Source: a virus. From it: DNA of 64,000 nt. Below the pieces are notes generated by a model, which was not told the DNA's origin, made no database searches, and saw nothing but the letters and a program-made list of their open reading frames with translations. The stretch is taken from IMG/VR virus record IMGVR_UViG_3300022903_000002, positions 1 through 64,000 of that record. One strand, given 5' to 3'. This document shows, in pieces, positions 15,506 to 53,216 of this stretch (within the stretch, counting starts at the first letter, position 1; each line of letters opens with the position of its first letter). Position numbers and translations under genes: made by a program.

Positions 15506-16011
15506 TGGCCGCCGGGGACACCGCCATCACGATATGCGGGAACCTGGTCGACGACCCGAGCCTCCGTTTCACTCCGTCGGGCCAGGCTGTGGCGAACTTC
15601 CGTGTCGCCTCCACACCCCGCTACAAGGACCAGCAGAGCGGCGAGTGGAAAGACGGTGAAGGACTCTTCCTCACCTGCAACGTGTGGCGTCAAGCCGCCG
15701 AGCACGCCGCCGAAAGTCTTCAGCGCGGCATGCGCGTCATCGTCCAGGGACGCCTCAAGCAGCGCTCGTATGAGACCCGTGAGGGTGAGAAGCGGACGGT
15801 CTACGAGATCGAGGTCGATGACTTCGGCCCGTCGCTGAAGAACGCCACGGCGAAGGTCGAGAAAGCGCAGCGGCAGGGCGGTCAGTCTCAGGGCGGGTTC
15901 GGTCAGCAGGGCGGCCAGCAGCCTCCGCGGGGCGGTAGCCAGCCGGCCGACGACCCGTGGGCAACCGGCGGCGGTGGCGGTGGAGGGTTCGATGATAAGC
16001 CGCCCTTCTAG
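15505..16011 (+). CDS. ssb: single-stranded DNA-binding protein
   Basis: This 168-residue protein is a bacterial-type SSB. The OB fold spans residues 1-115 ([48 protein letters not shown]). A Gly/Gln-rich linker follows, ending in the acidic tip FDDKPPF, the form that binds replication and repair partners. It should coat single strands at the phage fork, working with the helicase 2.6 kb upstream. The last 20 bases overlap the next gene. Confidence 0.93.
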
Positions 16012-25735: not shown

Positions 25736-25784
25736 CCCGGCCTGTCCCCTGAGAGTGGGCGGCAGGCCGGGTCAGCCCACTCTC
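25736..25784 (+). promoter_or_regulatory. interleaved double inverted repeat, site A
   Basis: Helix 1: CCCGGCCTG (25736-25744) pairs with CAGGCCGGG (25763-25771). Helix 2: GAGAGTGGGC (25751-25760) pairs with GCCCACTCTC (25775-25784). Both are perfect and their order is 1-2-1'-2'. The connecting loops are short (6, 2 and 3 bases), so the two helices probably compete instead of forming a full pseudoknot. The site starts four bases after a stop codon and ends 18 bases before the next ATG. Confidence 0.65.
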
Positions 25785-25802
25785 AACCCGAAAGGCTCAG
25801 CG

Positions 25803-26150
25803 ATGAGCGAGTCACACGACGGCGCGGCGTTCACTCCTACCGATGCACTCGAGAAGCTTCACTACGTTGACGATGTCCGCACCACAGCGAAGCGCCTTGC
25901 CGCCTACCGGGACGAGTTGGTCGCTGCTGGATTCACCTCTGATCAGGCCAACGAGTTCGTCGCCACTGCCGCACCGGGGCTGATCGAGGATCTCGTTGTC
26001 GCTGCCGATGTAGAGGACGAGAACCCGCCGATCGGTGAGGTTCGCATCCACCTGCGACCCCAGATCAATGACGAGGACATCGCTCGCGTAGCGCAGGAGA
26101 TCCAGCGGCGCGCGGAGATCGGCCAGCGATTTCTCGGACGGTCACTCTGA
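25803..26150 (+). CDS. hypothetical protein, 115 aa
   Basis: ATG 25803 follows AAAGG by 8 bases. The product is helical and acidic, with a C-terminal segment INDEDIARVAQEIQRRAEIG. It is the first gene downstream of site A and so the candidate target of that structure. Function unknown. Confidence 0.65.
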   Translation: MSESHDGAAFTPTDALEKLHYVDDVRTTAKRLAAYRDELVAAGFTSDQANEFVATAAPGLIEDLVVAADVEDENPPIGEVRIHLRPQINDEDIARVAQEIQRRAEIGQRFLGRSL

Positions 26151-33640: not shown

Positions 33641-33707
33641 CCCGGCCTGCCTCGTACTTTCTGGAAGTGGGGCGTGCGTGCGCAGGTCGGGTCAAAGCCC
33701 CACTTCC
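33641..33707 (+). promoter_or_regulatory. interleaved double inverted repeat, site B
   Basis: Helix 1: CCCGGCCTGC (33641-33650) with GCAGGTCGGG (33682-33691), 10 pairs including one G-U. Helix 2: GGAAGTGGGGC (33663-33673) with GCCCCACTTCC (33697-33707), 11 perfect pairs. The order 1-2-1'-2' matches sites A and C, and helix 1 resembles that of site A. It starts 11 bases after a stop and ends 16 bases before the next ATG. Confidence 0.65.
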
Positions 33708-33723
33708 AACTCAAGGATCGCTC

Positions 33724-34005
33724 ATGCAGAGCAAGCTTCCTGATCGCGACACTCGCGAATACGAGTGGTGGCTCGCAGGCGCTACCGCCGAGGTTGAGGC
33801 ACGCAAGGAAGGCCGCAGCAAACCCGGACTTCAGGTGCGCAGCTTCGTTGATGGGCTCGCCGAACACTATGGCGAGCTTGACGAGGCGCAGATCGCCGCA
33901 TTTGTGTTCAAGGTCTACACGGCTGGCCTGCCGCTGCGGATTCGGATCCGTCTTGCCCTGAAGGGCCCCACGTTCTCACCGCGCGGTAAGGGCAGTAATG
34001 GGTGA
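33724..34005 (+). CDS. hypothetical protein, 93 aa
   Basis: ATG 33724 follows AAGGA by 7 bases. The product is helical and charged (REYEWWLAGATAEVEARKEG; YGELDEAQIAAFVFKVYTAG). It is the first gene after site B. Function unknown. Confidence 0.6.
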   Translation: MQSKLPDRDTREYEWWLAGATAEVEARKEGRSKPGLQVRSFVDGLAEHYGELDEAQIAAFVFKVYTAGLPLRIRIRLALKGPTFSPRGKGSNG

Positions 34006-46293: not shown

Positions 46294-46673
46294 TGACCGT
46301 CCTCGCACCGTTCCCGGACGTGGAACGCGCGGTTGGCGACCTCGTAACCGGCCTCGGAACGGCAGGGTCGGAAACGAACATCACCCTGCAGTCCACGCTT
46401 CCGTACATCCGGATCCGCCGCCTTGGCGGTTCCGATGACCGCGTCACCGACGCCGCCCGCGTGGACGTGCACGTGTACGACACGAATGCCACGTCGGCGA
46501 AAGAGATCTCCGAGCAGATCCGGCAGCGGCTGATCTCAGGGCCATCTATGACCGCCCATGGCGTCATCGACCGGGCCTGGACCGAGATCGGCCCGCAGAC
46601 GATCCCAGCCGATGACACCGCGGATATCCGTCAGGTCGTCGCCACTTACCGCATTTCGATGCGCCGCCGCTGA
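46293..46673 (+). CDS. tail terminator protein
   Basis: This 126-residue protein has the beta-alpha layout of tail terminators: FPDVERAVGDLVTGLGTAGS, IRIRRLGGSDDRVTDAARVD, HVYDTN, and a final strand VVATYRISMRRR. ATG 46293 shares a base with the upstream stop; GTG 46290 is nearly equivalent. It caps the tail tube. A terminator overlaps its stop. Confidence 0.8.
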   Translation: MTVLAPFPDVERAVGDLVTGLGTAGSETNITLQSTLPYIRIRRLGGSDDRVTDAARVDVHVYDTNATSAKEISEQIRQRLISGPSMTAHGVIDRAWTEIGPQTIPADDTADIRQVVATYRISMRRR

Positions 46674-46690
46674 CCAGCGGCTCCTTTTTC
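46666..46690 (+). terminator. terminator overlapping the tail terminator gene stop
   Basis: GCCGCT (46666-46671) pairs with AGCGGC (46676-46681) around GACC, followed by TCCTTTTTC. It includes the stop codon. It is short, so partial termination is likely, raising or lowering tail versus head expression. Confidence 0.6.
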
Positions 46691-46752
46691 AGGCCCGCCA
46701 GCCTGTCCCAGCCCCGCCCGCGGGGCCACCTATCCCGCAGAGGGGAACATCC

Positions 46753-47421
46753 ATGGCTGGCGTCAGCTATGACGATCTTCAACAGCGCAATGCCGCGCTG
46801 ATCTTCAAGGCCCTGCAGGGGTCCGTGTTCGTCGCCCCGTCGAGCGTCGCAGCGATCACCGCACTGACCGACACCGACAAGCTCCTCAAGGAACTCCCCG
46901 AAGGGTACGAGGACGTCGGCTGGATCAGCGACGACGGAGCCCAGTTCTCCCGCGACACCGACACTAGCGACATCACCGGCTGGGGAAGTGTGGAGCCGCT
47001 CCGCTCGGACGTCACACAGGACACCACCACGCTGCAGATGGAAGCCCTGGAGACCAAGAAGTCGACGATCGGTCTCTACACAGGCGCCGACATGGACGCG
47101 GTGACCCCGGACCCGGTCTCCGGTGAGGTCAGCATCCAGAAGCCCGCCCGGCCCGGGTTCCGCTACTACCGGGTCCTCGCTGTTGCCGTGGACCTCACCG
47201 ATGACGGCGAGTACTACGTCGCCCGGTTCCTGCCGCGGGCCCGCGTCACGGACTACGACGACCAGAACATGCAGTCCAGCGACGACTCGCCGATCACCTG
47301 GCCTGTCACGATGACGGGCTACGAGGACCCCCTTCTCGGCTACTCGGAGAACTACCTGTTCGGAGGCCCCGGCTGGGCGACGAGGCTCGCCGCGATGGGC
47401 TTCGAGCCCATCGGCTCCTGA
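46753..47421 (+). CDS. major tail tube protein
   Basis: This 222-residue protein precedes the chaperone and tape measure genes. ATG 46753 follows AGAGGGG. Beta-rich tube features are DVGWISDDGAQFSRDTDTSD, LQMEALETKKSTIGLYTGAD, YRVLAVAVDLTDDGEYYVAR and ITWPVTMTGYEDPLLGYSEN. It polymerises into the tail tube. In the 79-base gap upstream, CGCCAGCC can pair with GGCTGGCG over the start codon. Confidence 0.88.
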   Translation: MAGVSYDDLQQRNAALIFKALQGSVFVAPSSVAAITALTDTDKLLKELPEGYEDVGWISDDGAQFSRDTDTSDITGWGSVEPLRSDVTQDTTTLQMEALETKKSTIGLYTGADMDAVTPDPVSGEVSIQKPARPGFRYYRVLAVAVDLTDDGEYYVARFLPRARVTDYDDQNMQSSDDSPITWPVTMTGYEDPLLGYSENYLFGGPGWATRLAAMGFEPIGS

Positions 47422-47424
47422 TAC

Positions 47425-47483
47425 GTCGCGGCGGCCGGTCTAGCTGGCGGGCCCCGGCCGCCGCGACTCCAAGGCCCGCCAGC
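47425..47483 (+). promoter_or_regulatory. interleaved double inverted repeat, site C
   Basis: Helix 1: GTCGCGGCGGCCGG (47425-47438) with CCGGCCGCCGCGAC (47454-47467), 14 perfect pairs. Helix 2: GCTGGCGGGCC (47443-47453) with GGCCCGCCAGC (47473-47483), 11 perfect pairs. The order is again 1-2-1'-2', starting four bases after a stop. The 5-base link between 1' and 2' is too short to span 14 pairs, so the helices should exclude each other. Confidence 0.7.
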
Positions 47484-47502
47484 ACAAGAGAAGGGTCCGG
47501 CC

Positions 47503-47688
47503 GTGGCCGCAGCAAGCTCCCAATACCCCGTCTACGTGTCACCGGACGGCGAGAAGGAACAGTTCGCGACGTCGCCAGCCCGTGAGGTGCAACTCAGGCA
47601 TGCGGGCTGGCGGCTCAAATCCGAACCTCGCAAGAAGAAGACGCCGAGCGGTGACCTGAGCCGCTGGCAGCAACCCACCACCAACTGA
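47503..47688 (+). CDS. small basic protein between tail tube and chaperone genes
   Basis: The GTG start follows AGAAGGG at 9 bases. The 61-residue product (YPVYVSPDGEKEQFATSPAR; EVQLRHAGWRLKSEPRKKKT) is basic at its end. The gene after site C, it may be a head- or tail-joining accessory. No function is known. Confidence 0.65.
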   Translation: MAAASSQYPVYVSPDGEKEQFATSPAREVQLRHAGWRLKSEPRKKKTPSGDLSRWQQPTTN

Positions 47689-48473: not shown

Positions 48474-51400
48474 GTGGCCGCTCAAGTCGGTGCTGCTTAC
48501 ATCAAGGTCGCTCCGAACCTCGCCGGTTTCCACCGCACGATCACCAAAGAGCTAAAAAGCCTCAGCCCGCAGGTCAAGAAGATCGGGTTGGGGCTCGGCC
48601 GGAACCTTGGCGACGGCATCAAGGTCGGCCTCGGCGACCCGCTTTCCGGACCGCTGGATGAGTCCACCAAGAAGCAACGGCAGAAAGGCCCCAAGCAGGG
48701 CGAAGAGGTCGCTGGGGCGTTCGCGAAGGGTTTCGAGAAGCGCCTGAAGGCAGCGTTTCAGGCCCTGCCGAAAGCCGAAATCGACGCTGATTCCTCACCC
48801 GCCGACAAGAAGATCGCGGAGCTTCGGCGACAGCTTGAGGCACTCTCCGGCAAGACCGTCGGTGTCGACATTGACGCGGGTGCGGCTCTCTCAGAGGTCG
48901 CCGCGATCCGGTCCGAGTTGGAGGCACTGGACGGCCACGAGTCGATCCAGGTCGATGTCGACGCCGCTGCGGCCCTGGCGGAGCTCACCGCGGTACAGGT
49001 CGAGGTCGATCGGGTAGATGGGCGCACAGCCCGTGTGAACGTCAACGCGGACGTGTTGCCGGCGTTGGCTGGTATCGGGCTTGTCAGCACGGCGTTGCTT
49101 GGTCTGACGGCGATTCCGATTGCGGCGACGGTCGGTGTGGGGATCCTGTCGCTGGTCGGTCCGCTTGGTGCGGCGGGAGCTGGGTTCGCTGGTCTTGCTG
49201 CGGTCGCGACTCCGTCGATCAACCGTATCGGCGAGGCGCTGAAGGTCCAGAAGCAGGCGCAGGACGCGTCGACGGGTAGTGCCGCGCAGGCCGCGGCGGC
49301 GAACAAGAAGCTCGCCGCGACGATGGCGGCTCTGTCGCCTGCTGAGCGCGACGTGCTCAAGTCGTGGAACGGGCTGCGGACGGCGTTCACGGGCTGGGCG
49401 AAGGAACTGCAGCCTGCCGTGCTCCCGCTGTTCACGCGCGGCATCAACCTGGTGAAGCAGGCTCTGCCCGGGTTGACGCCGATCGTGAAAGGCGCGGCCG
49501 GCGCGGTCAACGGTCTCCTCGGGGACGTTACCCGCGCGGCTCAGTCGCCGTTCTGGCGGCAACTACGGACGAATATCACAGGTCTGGTGCCGACGTCGAT
49601 CACGGGTTTCGGGAAGATCGCCGGGAACATCGCGACGGGTCTGGCTGGGATCGTGTCCGCGTTCTTGCCGTATGCGCCCACGATCTTGTCGTTCATCACC
49701 CGGATCACCGCGGGTTTCGCCCGTTGGGGCCAGGGGCTGGGGACCTCGAACGGCTTCGCGAAGTTTATGGCCTACGTCAAGCAGAACGCGCCGCTGATCC
49801 TCGAGACGGTCAAGCAGCTCGGCTTGTCGATCGCGCACATTGTGTCGTCGCTGGCACCACTCGGCCCGGCCGTCCTCGGCGGCTTCGGGCTGCTGCTGCG
49901 GTTTATCGGCATGCTGACGCCCGGCGAGATCCAGGCCATCGCGATCGCGTTCACGCTCCTGTCGGTGTCGATCTGGGCCGTGAATTTCGCGCTTGAAGCC
50001 AATCCGGTGGTGCTTGTCATAACGCTGATCGTCGCTCTTGTGGCGGCGGTCGTCTTGGCGTTCAACCACGTGACGTGGTTCCACAATGCGGTGGTCGCGG
50101 CGTTCAACGGCATCAAGGCCGCGGTCCTGTTCGTCTGGAATTCGGTCTTGAAGCCGACGTTCTCGGCTCTCGTGGTCGCTTTCCAAGCGATCAGCACGGT
50201 CGTGATGTGGCTGTGGCGGAACGTGATCTCCCCGGCATTCAGCGCCATCTCGCTGGCCGCACGGATCCTGTTCGCGATCGTCGCCGTTGCCGTCCTGGCG
50301 CCGCTGGTCATCGCGTTCAACATCCTCAAGGCCGTGATTCTGGCTTGGTGGCACATCGTTGTGGTGCCAGCGTTCGCGGCGGTGCAGGCGGTCATCGCGG
50401 CAGCATGGGTGGTGATCCACCCGATCCTGGCCGCGCTCGGCGTCGCGGTCCGCGCTGTTGGCGCTGCGGCGATGTGGCTGTGGCACAACGCGATCGTGCC
50501 GGCCTGGAACGGCATCAGCCTTGCAATTGCCACCGTGTACAACACGGTGATTCACCCGATCTTGAACGCGCTGAACGCGGTGCTACGGAACGTGATCGCC
50601 CCGGTTTTCCGGTGGATCTACACATCGGTGATCAAGCCGATGTTCCAGGCGGCGGGCGCTGTGATCCGTAACGTCTGGAACACCGCTATAAGTCCGGCGT
50701 TCAACGCTCTTAAGTCGGGTGTGAACGCGGTCAAGAACGCGTTCTCCACCGCTGTCTCGGCAATCGGGCGAATCTGGAAGGGCCTGGAGTCCGCCACCAA
50801 GAAACCCGTCCAATTTGTTGTCAACACGGTCTACAACAACGGCATCCGTTCCGTGTGGAACAAGGTCGCCGGCCTAGTTCACCTGCCTCAGCTGCCTGCG
50901 GCGAAGTTCGCTCAGGGCGGTATCTTCCCGGGCTACACGCCCGGCAAGGACCCGTACTCCATGCCGATGGCCGCCTTCTCTGGCGGCGAGGCCGTCATGC
51001 GGCCCGAGTTCACCCGAGCGGTCGGCCCCGGGTTCGTGTACGCGGCGAACAAGGTAGCTCGCAAGCGTGGGCCTGGCGGTGTCCGGGATTTCCTCGCGAA
51101 CGGTGAGATGAAGTTCGCGACGGGCGGGATCCTGCCCGGACGGCATGTGGCGGCATTCGCGAATGGCGGCATCATCGGAGGGATCCTCGGGGCCGTCAAG
51201 CGTGCCAGCAGTCTCGTGGTTCGCGGCGCGTCATCGGTCCTCGGCGGGGGTGCGAGCGCGTTCGCGAAGACCGTCCTCAACCCGATCCTGTCTCGGATCC
51301 CGGGGGCGGATTCGCCGTGGGCGCAGGGCATCCTGTCCCTGCCGAAACGGATGATCGATGGGTTCATCTCCTGGCTGCACACAGCCATCGATCCGAAGCT

Positions 51401-53216
51401 CGGCGGTGACGCGCATGGTGTTGTCGCCGCAGCGAAGAAATACATCGGTATCGGCGACGATAGAGGACCTAACAACAACATCTTCAGCCGCTGGTGGGGA
51501 ATGCCGGGCGGGCCTTGGTGCTTCGCGGCCGGAACACTTGTGGACACCCCACAAGGCTTGGTCCCGATCGAGAACCTCAAGGTCGGCGACCCGGTCTACA
51601 CCGGAACCGGCAATGTCCAGCGGGTGTCGTGTCTGTACAGGAGGCAGAAAGAGCTGTGGCGCGTCGTCGCCATGGGAATGCCCGAGACCTTCACGACCGA
51701 AGACCATCCGTATCTTGTGCGTAAGCGCCTCGCTGGGCGGAAGCGGGCGTTTGCGGAGCCGCAGCGCACATCGGTCAAGGACCTCCGGAAGGGGGACCTG
51801 ATCGGCCTTCCGCTCGGGCCGGAAGGAACGACGAAGTACGACCCGGACCTGAGTTACGTCCTCGGCATGTATGTCGCCGACGGATGCCGGAGCAAGGGCA
51901 CCGTGATCTTCTCGGATGCCCCTGGTGAGACCGAACGGATCCTAACCGCCCTCAAGCGCGCCGGCTTCGATCGAGCATGGACCACACGTAACGGCGGTGG
52001 GACGAACACGGGCATCACCGACAGCGGCCTCTACGAACTGTGCGGGAAGTTCGGGGACCTGGCACACAACAAGGAGATCCCCGATGAAGTCCACGCTTGG
52101 GATGCCGCCGCCAGGACCGCTTTCGTAGAGGGGTTCCTCGCCGGGGACGGGCACCTGAACGATGCGATCTCGTGCGGTGGTTCGCCGCGCTGGGAGGTCA
52201 CGACCGTTTCACCGAAGTTGGCCGTCGGGCTGGCCAAACTACTGCGGTCCCTGGGGTTCCTCCCGTCGGTGAATGACGGTCGCCCTGAACAATCGCTGAC
52301 GATCTGCGGACGGGATACACACTGCCGGAAGCAGTTCAAGCTGAGCTGGCGGAACGCCCATCGCGATGAACTTACCTATCACCATTACGTCGAAGAGGAC
52401 GGTGTCATCTGGGTTCCGGTTCGTGAGGCGGAGCCGACGGGGCGAGTCGAGTGCGTGTATGACATCACCGTTCCTGGCGAGCACACATTCATCGCTAACG
52501 GAGCGTATTCGTTCAACTGCGCCATGTTCGTTTCTCGTGTCATCAAGGACGCCCACGCCGAGAAGTACTACTCCGGATATCCGACGGCGCTGGCCGCCGG
52601 GTACAACTCGATGCGGCATGTCAGTAGCGGGCAAGCTGGTGACCTCGCCACATACAACGGCGGCGGTCACATCAACATCATCGAGAAACCCGCTGGCGGG
52701 GCGTACATGACGATCGGCGGGAACCAGAACGCGCTCGTACAGCGCGGTATCCGGTCTCCCGGCCTGATTTTGCGCCCGGCGTTCGCGAACGGCGGGATCA
52801 TCGGCCGAGAAGCGCAGCGCCTGTTCAAGCACGACGCACCGCGGCAGATCGACAAGCACGAACTGCAGACGCCGATGGTGCAACTCATGCGTTCGCTGCC
52901 GTCCGGGCAGATGAGCAACGTTGTCCGCGCGATCACGAAGAAGCACCTCACCGTCGCGAACGCCGGCGTCTACGACGACGGAGGTGTTATTGCCCCTGGG
53001 TTGAACCTTGTCGCGAACGCGTCACGAAAACCGGAAGCGCTGCTGAGCAACGCGCAGTGGCGTGGCATCACCGAGGCCGCCGCTGGTGGCGACACGCACT
53101 ATCACGCGCACCTGGACGAGATGACGCAGGCGGCCTACGGCACGCAGATCCGCTCGACATTCCACGCGATGGAAACCCAGCGGGCCATGAAAGAGCGCAT
53201 CGGACGGAGGCGCTGA
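48474..53216 (+). CDS. tape measure protein with CHAP-like peptidase domain, split by intein
   Basis: The open frame is 1580 codons; removing the intein leaves 1247 residues. Features in order: an N-terminal coiled coil; repeated Val-Asp-Ile/Ala-Ala segments (GVDIDAGAALSEVAAIRSEL); several membrane-type helices (LSVSIWAVNFALEANPVVLV; LVITLIVALVAAVVLAF); and Trp-rich repeats (VMWLWRNVISPAFSAI; AMWLWHNAIVPAWNGI). A CHAP/NlpC-like domain with RWWGMPGGPW / CAMFVSRVIKD and GHINIIEKPAGG (catalytic Cys and His) follows. It sets tail length and probably helps the tail cross the cell wall. It starts at GTG 48474. Confidence 0.9.
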   Translation: MAAQVGAAYIKVAPNLAGFHRTITKELKSLSPQVKKIGLGLGRNLGDGIKVGLGDPLSGPLDESTKKQRQKGPKQGEEVAGAFAKGFEKRLKAAFQALPKAEIDADSSPADKKIAELRRQLEALSGKTVGVDIDAGAALSEVAAIRSELEALDGHESIQVDVDAAAALAELTAVQVEVDRVDGRTARVNVNADVLPALAGIGLVSTALLGLTAIPIAATVGVGILSLVGPLGAAGAGFAGLAAVATPSINRIGEALKVQKQAQDASTGSAAQAAAANKKLAATMAALSPAERDVLKSWNGLRTAFTGWAKELQPAVLPLFTRGINLVKQALPGLTPIVKGAAGAVNGLLGDVTRAAQSPFWRQLRTNITGLVPTSITGFGKIAGNIATGLAGIVSAFLPYAPTILSFITRITAGFARWGQGLGTSNGFAKFMAYVKQNAPLILETVKQLGLSIAHIVSSLAPLGPAVLGGFGLLLRFIGMLTPGEIQAIAIAFTLLSVSIWAVNFALEANPVVLVITLIVALVAAVVLAFNHVTWFHNAVVAAFNGIKAAVLFVWNSVLKPTFSALVVAFQAISTVVMWLWRNVISPAFSAISLAARILFAIVAVAVLAPLVIAFNILKAVILAWWHIVVVPAFAAVQAVIAAAWVVIHPILAALGVAVRAVGAAAMWLWHNAIVPAWNGISLAIATVYNTVIHPILNALNAVLRNVIAPVFRWIYTSVIKPMFQAAGAVIRNVWNTAISPAFNALKSGVNAVKNAFSTAVSAIGRIWKGLESATKKPVQFVVNTVYNNGIRSVWNKVAGLVHLPQLPAAKFAQGGIFPGYTPGKDPYSMPMAAFSGGEAVMRPEFTRAVGPGFVYAANKVARKRGPGGVRDFLANGEMKFATGGILPGRHVAAFANGGIIGGILGAVKRASSLVVRGASSVLGGGASAFAKTVLNPILSRIPGADSPWAQGILSLPKRMIDGFISWLHTAIDPKLGGDAHGVVAAAKKYIGIGDDRGPNNNIFSRWWGMPGGPWCFAAGTLVDTPQGLVPIENLKVGDPVYTGTGNVQRVSCLYRRQKELWRVVAMGMPETFTTEDHPYLVRKRLAGRKRAFAEPQRTSVKDLRKGDLIGLPLGPEGTTKYDPDLSYVLGMYVADGCRSKGTVIFSDAPGETERILTALKRAGFDRAWTTRNGGGTNTGITDSGLYELCGKFGDLAHNKEIPDEVHAWDAAARTAFVEGFLAGDGHLNDAISCGGSPRWEVTTVSPKLAVGLAKLLRSLGFLPSVNDGRPEQSLTICGRDTHCRKQFKLSWRNAHRDELTYHHYVEEDGVIWVPVREAEPTGRVECVYDITVPGEHTFIANGAYSFNCAMFVSRVIKDAHAEKYYSGYPTALAAGYNSMRHVSSGQAGDLATYNGGGHINIIEKPAGGAYMTIGGNQNALVQRGIRSPGLILRPAFANGGIIGREAQRLFKHDAPRQIDKHELQTPMVQLMRSLPSGQMSNVVRAITKKHLTVANAGVYDDGGVIAPGLNLVANASRKPEALLSNAQWRGITEAAAGGDTHYHAHLDEMTQAAYGTQIRSTFHAMETQRAMKERIGRRR
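51519..52517 (+). mobile_element. 333-residue intein with LAGLIDADG homing endonuclease
   Basis: Splicing motifs are complete at the N side: C1-FAAGTLVDTPQGLVPIENL (block A), then TFTTEDHPYLVRKR (block B, with T-x-x-H). Two LAGLIDADG blocks are present, YVLGMYVADGC and FVEGFLAGDGHL. At the C side, VYDITVPGEHTFIANGAYSF ends in Asn (codon 52515-52517) followed by +1 Cys. The residue before Asn is Phe, not the usual His. The insertion lies directly before the catalytic Cys of the CHAP-like domain, so the spliced Cys+1 is the peptidase nucleophile. Confidence 0.92.

Follow-up and report, generated by a model that had tools for sequence, protein, structure and literature searches.

Two interleaved inverted repeats in a gap between a stop and a start codon (site A) raise the question of which structure they form and what that structure might control. 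The gap lies in a viral DNA stretch of 64,000 nucleotides, positions 1 to 64,000 of IMG/VR record IMGVR_UViG_3300022903_000002 (the window), which is part of a 105-kb virus record and, judging by relatives, belongs to an actinophage. We analyzed site A together with two similar sites of the window (sites B and C) and with related loci of other phages.

Interleaved repeats at sites A, B, and C

A first-pass annotation had placed two perfect repeats of 9 and 10 bp in a 70-base gap at site A. Our measurement of the gap gave the same 70 nt, and helix 1 (S1; CCCGGCCTG and CAGGCCGGG) has the expected 9 bp, but helix 2 (S2; TGAGAGTGGGC and GCCCACTCTCA) is 11 bp long and ends at 25785. The same helix order with full pairing had also been claimed for sites B and C; the order held, and the pairing of helix 1 in site B (CCCGGCCTGC and GCAGGTCGGG) includes one G-U pair. 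The distance from the S2 end to the start codon is 17 nt (ATG), 15 nt (ATG), and 19 nt (GTG) at sites A, B, and C, respectively (Table 1). A candidate fourth site at genome position 75,917 was rejected because it lies within a coding frame.

Table 1 Positions of the three sites and the neighboring genes in the window.
Feature	Position	Strand	Description
Site A	25736..25785	+	S1 25736-25744/25763-25771; S2 25750-25760/25775-25785; linkers 5, 2, 3 nt
Gene led by site A	25803..26150	+	115 aa; no family found
Site B	33641..33708	+	S1 33641-33650/33682-33691; S2 33662-33673/33697-33708 (12 bp); linkers 11, 8, 5
Gene led by site B	33724..34005	+	93 aa; no family found
Major tail protein (MTP) gene upstream of site C	46558..47421	+	phrog_476, PF25681
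Site C	47425..47483	+	S1 47425-47438/47454-47467 (14 bp); S2 47443-47453/47473-47483 (11 bp); linkers 4, 0, 5 (L1 47439-47442; L2 none; L3 47468-47472)
Shine-Dalgarno-like GAAGGG of the small gene	47490..47495	+	Read from sequence
Small gene led by site C	47503..47688	+	61 aa; motif LVSPDG...L..GW; opens the tail-assembly module
Tape measure gene	48474..53216	+	Same downstream module as the small gene

Among perfect interleaved pairs of at least 8 bp in the 64 kb, only those of A and C had all linkers shorter than 10 nt. When whole-window dinucleotide shuffles (n = 6, best score 57) were scanned, the score of site C (73) exceeded every shuffle and that of site B (58.5) was at their edge, while site A was not above them in the same scan. 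Therefore, A and B rest on the small intergenic search space and on their homologues.

The upstream neighbor of site A is an unknown gene, and no relatives of the downstream gene were found in IMG/VR. Elements nearly identical to site A were present in two other phages (L070 and L062). The neighbors of these A-type elements in L070 and L062 are unrelated (near portal; upstream of HNH/terminase), indicating that the sequence has moved between contexts, and despite the unrelated genes the spacing to the start codon was 15–22 nt in A, B, L062, and L070. With a relaxed A-type pattern, the only true copies retrieved were L062 and L070, and DNA searches with the A-type sequence in named phages gave short chance matches only. 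The gene 5′ of site B has relatives in Satis and Frankenweenie that adjoin the major capsid gene, and in some relatives the position of site B is occupied by a plain hairpin that resembles a terminator. Site C, located between the MTP gene and the small first gene of the tail-assembly module, is the most informative of the three.

Occurrence at the tail-assembly junction and the gene that follows

The same interleaved helices with other sequences were found at the MTP/tail-assembly junction of Arthrobacter, Gordonia, Nocardia, Rhodococcus, and Mycobacterium phages, in 19 of the 26 named phages inspected and in the majority of IMG/VR relatives. An MTP alignment search yielded 85 further loci (95 distinct loci in total), and in 54 of the 95 a strict scan detected the element no more than 130 nt from the MTP stop codon. 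The remainder of the 554 kb gave 13 matches, about seven of which were the same element displaced or differently parsed. The layout followed MTP in Nocardia phage P69, Gordonia phages Emianna, Yndexa, Flapper, GMA4, and Mollymur, and Arthrobacter phages BrayBeast, Shoya, Zaheer, JanetJ, and Maja; for each of these phages, none of 200 shuffles scored as high. In the MTP relatives L008, L009, L010, and L042, both helices were kept and the bases were changed. In an independent genome match (L198), the element begins 3 nt after MTP and ends 21 nt before the next gene. Cafasso and Lumos carry a plain long hairpin at the MTP junction instead, and Kimchi1738 has no room for the element after MTP. Long plain hairpins were also seen after the major capsid gene of Arthrobacter phages (L087 140-214, L105 2069-2149, and L106 2080-2149).

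In mycobacteriophages D29, TiroTheta9, Hookmount, and Power and in Gordonia phage Waits, the element precedes the chaperone gene; in TiroTheta9 it lies between genes 22 and 23, numbered as in Kampy. In all, 668 phage records match the D29 element region at least in part. Two further repeat arrangements were observed in related genomes: tandem GC-rich repeats TGGTCGCGTCCACC(GGTCGCGGGG) in L002 (17301-17406; genome of about 81.2 kb) and clustered AAGGGTT inverted repeats in L003 (3898-3954; genome of about 87.7 kb).

The gene after the element nearly always encodes a small protein with an LVSPDG...L..GW motif and a low-complexity tail. A profile search recognized this gene in 80 loci, in 57 of which the element was directly upstream, at a distance of at most 115 nt; none of 100 shuffles gave as high a count. 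The distance from the S2 end to the start codon had a median of 21 nt (interquartile range, 17–25 nt), which agrees with the leader placement originally suggested for site A. In 12 loci the small gene is displaced from MTP, and the element still precedes it in eight of these (one weak). In ChewyVIII the element follows an inserted hydrolase gene and none lies directly after MTP; in MacGully it precedes gp45 and none follows MTP; in Muddy it precedes the tail assembly chaperone gene and no small-gene element follows MTP. L114 differs in that a hairpin stays with MTP though the small gene is displaced. Where slack was available on the upstream side (ten cases), the distance upstream varied from 32 to 118 nt and that from the S2 end to the start codon from 11 to 23 nt. 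About 40 other gaps of the named phages were inspected and the element was not found in them. Since the element accompanies the downstream module, we rejected an MTP-linked 3′ element as the sole link.

Among the loci that lack the element, the small gene is immediately preceded by a T-run hairpin and a −10-like promoter sequence in L122 and L127 and by the promoter-like sequence alone in L124. By its sequence, this junction looks like a transcript boundary.

The product of the site C gene and its relatives (alignment A8) form a fast-evolving family with a P/A/K-rich tail and no Pfam match. The predicted fold has a beta-beta-alpha core, for which a fold search gave no PDB match and only weak viral matches; a 95-aa Muddy protein and a 48-aa Shoya protein were weakly similar in fold. 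The Gordonia version corresponds to phrog_14117, a virion structural protein.

In other phages, pseudoknots that follow major tail or capsid genes are known to act as recoding signals, and the element resembles them in its position right after the major tail gene. A knot that promotes readthrough or a frameshift where the MTP gene ends would suit sites B and C, where the downstream gene shares the frame of the upstream stop codon and this frame is open from there on. However, neither the frame relation nor the openness is kept in L008, L009, and L010, and frame differences across the stop codon of 0, 1, and 2 occur among close relatives. The element, unlike the recoding pseudoknots, has no conserved frame, is not known to give an extended product, does not stay beside the MTP gene where other genes come between, and also occurs away from MTP. 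With frame and openness not conserved, we rejected recoding and consider it highly improbable.

Covariation and geometry of the two helices

Paired base changes were frequent in S1. Double changes occurred at 9 of 15 pairs in the Gordonia/Nocardia set (0 of 500 shuffles) and at 5 of 12 pairs in the Arthrobacter set, with slid controls near zero for both, and at 2 of 11 pairs in the C-type set; three pairs were compensated between D29 and TiroTheta9. The outer S1 pairs covaried as well. For S2, double changes were absent from both of the larger families (Gordonia/Nocardia and Arthrobacter), and 2 of its 10 pairs covaried among the four A-type copies (the A/B set). S2 is conserved inside families and replaced between them. 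When S2 was not chosen beforehand, complementarity between the S1 loop and the 3′ tail reached p ≤ 0.01 in 18 and p ≤ 0.05 in 31 of 58 loci, which is more than chance would give. S2 is supported by this complementarity, by its conservation, by the two double changes of the A/B set, and by its turnover from family to family. MAFFT mis-registers some rows (L085 in alignment A2 and S2 in A5), which makes the affected counts conservative. The earlier proposal of a selected structure whose topology is kept through paired changes is supported by the S1 covariation in several families; it would have fallen had no homologous sites with paired substitutions turned up, and such sites were found in numbers.

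The same data bear on whether the repeats act in DNA, as a site of protein binding or recombination. Inverted repeats can be protein sites, and the D29 gap holds a match, in reverse complement, to the published stoperator consensus (CTTGACAGCCACC). The G-U pairs and the compensatory changes with free sequence turnover fit RNA instead, as do the fixed orientation and the start-codon spacing, and we regard a DNA-level site as very unlikely. This stoperator match lies in the gene 23-24 gap of D29 (L216 3580-3698; AF022214, about 15,580-15,700) directly upstream of the pseudoknot, which places a repressor site and an RNA element in one gap.

The helix order S1–S2–S1′–S2′ was found in every element, with median lengths of 14 (S1), 4 (L1), 9 (S2), 0 (L2), and 8 (L3). 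Linkers of this kind, with L1 short, L2 absent, and L3 longer, are required by an H-type pseudoknot whose helices stack; independent, mutually exclusive helices would not need them. By an A-form chord estimate, which is rough and allows one step of slack, both helices can be held in full in 21 of 51 elements and with at most 2 bp frayed in 42 of 51 (A, 2 bp; B, 1 bp; C, 2 bp); in some elements, 3–4 bp would have to fray. In helix order and linker length, the modeled geometry fits an H-type pseudoknot leader, and we infer that the two helices form together. The first-pass annotation had held the linkers too short for a full pseudoknot and the helices therefore mutually exclusive. This claim is unsupported, given that the loss of no more than 2 bp suffices at each of the three sites. 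A conditional alternation between frayed helices is possible.

That annotation had also suggested a bistable leader that controls the next gene. In such a switch, only one of S1 and S2 would form at a time, and which of them does, decided for instance by a ribosome stopped at the upstream stop codon whose footprint would reach the base of S1, would set expression of the next gene. Such a switch is consistent with the median distance of 6 nt between the stop codon and S1 in the compact genomes, with the elements that need 3–4 bp of fraying, and with the covariation of the outer S1 pairs. However, most elements hold both helices with 2 bp or fewer lost, the linker asymmetry is that of pseudoknots, and displaced copies lie 38–118 nt from the upstream stop codon. 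The effect on the ribosome site was likewise not consistent: the predicted accessibility of the Shine-Dalgarno site was essentially the same when helix 1 or helix 2 was forced (medians of 0.38 and 0.42 in the two helix states), which goes against a switch that hides this site. We therefore judge a bistable switch unlikely.

An intrinsic terminator was likewise tried and rejected: at least four T in the 8 nt that follow were present after S1 in 6 of 48 elements, after S2 in 2 of 48, and at none of the sites A, B, and C. With U-tracts rare and accessibility the same in both states, neither an intrinsic terminator nor a Shine-Dalgarno-masking switch fits the element.

Candidate function and relation to known RNA devices

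What does not vary among the elements is that a bulky knot ends where the ribosome landing site begins on its upstream side, and this favors control of translation initiation. From it we infer translation as the target, and we tentatively propose, at slightly less than even confidence, that the element is a cis-acting, ribosome-site-proximal H-type pseudoknot that controls translation of the first gene of the tail-assembly module. Within a long late transcript, the element would lie directly 5′ of the ribosome-binding site of that gene, which would be the gene for the small SPDG/GW protein or, where this is missing, for the tail assembly chaperone. Helix 1 (about 14 bp) would form, and its loop would pair with the stretch just 3′ of it to give helix 2 (about 9 bp), stacked on helix 1 with no spacer. 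The pseudoknot would most likely lower or gate translation initiation of the first gene, which would thereby be uncoupled from the heavily translated structural genes upstream, and would so help to set the ratio of tail-tube protein to assembly protein. Sites A and B may play the same role for two other genes of this phage.

The main rival to translational control acts on the RNA itself, as an exonuclease double barrier or by partial pausing or termination, so that the upstream structural mRNA outlasts or outnumbers the tail-assembly mRNA. Two interleaved helices would be a barrier from either end, plain hairpins occupy the same place in other phages, and in L122 and L127 a T-run hairpin is followed by promoter-like sequence. 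The plain hairpins of Cafasso and Lumos suggest that any stable structure may do at the MTP junction. RNA-seq of Kampy showed the highest transcript level over genes 14 to 22, ending at the MTP gene (PMC4626039), upstream of the position that the element takes in TiroTheta9; this points to an RNA-level step and counts against translational control. On the other hand, late transcription of L5 and D29 starts close to the left end and extends as far as the gene 32-33 region (PMC5712189), which puts the element inside the message, U-tracts are scarce, and the spacing is fixed to the start codon and not to the upstream gene. We consider an RNA-level effect of this kind possible, though doubtful. 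The two readings of the RNA-seq data can both be true.

A search of the window against Rfam 15 gave no matches, in line with the initial impression that no named RNA family has this layout, and at the gathering score 20 related loci gave only an unrelated tRNA-Sec call in L098. No description of the element was found in the literature searched on pseudoknots in mycobacteriophages and actinobacteriophages and at major tail genes. The element is a new and widespread example of a known device, the ribosome-binding-site-proximal phage pseudoknot, in an unexpected place.

In its mode of action, the closest counterpart of the element would be the T4 and RB69 gene 32 operator, an H-type pseudoknot of phage mRNA that lies 5′ of the Shine-Dalgarno site and keeps its topology as the sequence diverges (PMC535899). 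The T4 knot spans about 28 nt, and gp32 binds to more than 40 nt of less structured sequence with UUAAA that comes after it. In contrast, S1 and S2 of the actinophage element are much longer and GC-rich, and the spacer between knot and start codon is about 20 nt; no UUAAA-bearing tract of more than 40 nt, and no such repeats, were found there. The element also resembles the rpsO (S15) leader, a pseudoknot at a translation start that controls the next gene. The rpsO gene encodes a ribosomal protein and its knot includes the ribosome-binding site, whereas the actinophage element ends before that site. A mycobacterial case of the rpsO leader pseudoknot is described in PMC8470358. Mycobacteriophage start-associated sequences (SAS/ESAS) are a further kind of element 5′ of many start codons, defined by a fixed, asymmetric motif. 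With intrinsic terminators and REP-like stabilizing hairpins, the element shares a stable GC-rich hairpin at a gene boundary but differs in its second interleaved helix and in mostly lacking a U-tract. The Giles record annotates an ncRNA, 'pseudoknot RNA' (Giles_80, EU203571 10907-10974; L215), which is likewise an RNA pseudoknot near actinophage tail genes. Unlike the element, Giles_80 overlaps the gene 16/17 junction and coding sequence, lying across the overlap of these genes, and an interleaved pair of the type described here was not found in its region.

A bolder reading, which we think rather unlikely, is that the elements form a widespread RNA family of actinophages, so far undescribed, whose role is to sense virion assembly. 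The element would then be a translational operator bound by a structural protein, either the small SPDG/GW protein or MTP, matching chaperone and tape-measure synthesis to the supply of tail tube, and the device would be reused at sites A and B.

The element occurs in intensively used laboratory and therapeutic phages (D29 and Muddy), at a junction that is highly sensitive to expression. The dozens of covarying pseudoknots form a natural series for RNA structure work. For siphophages, the element offers a directly testable answer to how one late transcript may yield tail-tube protein in amounts very different from those of the chaperone and the tape-measure protein.
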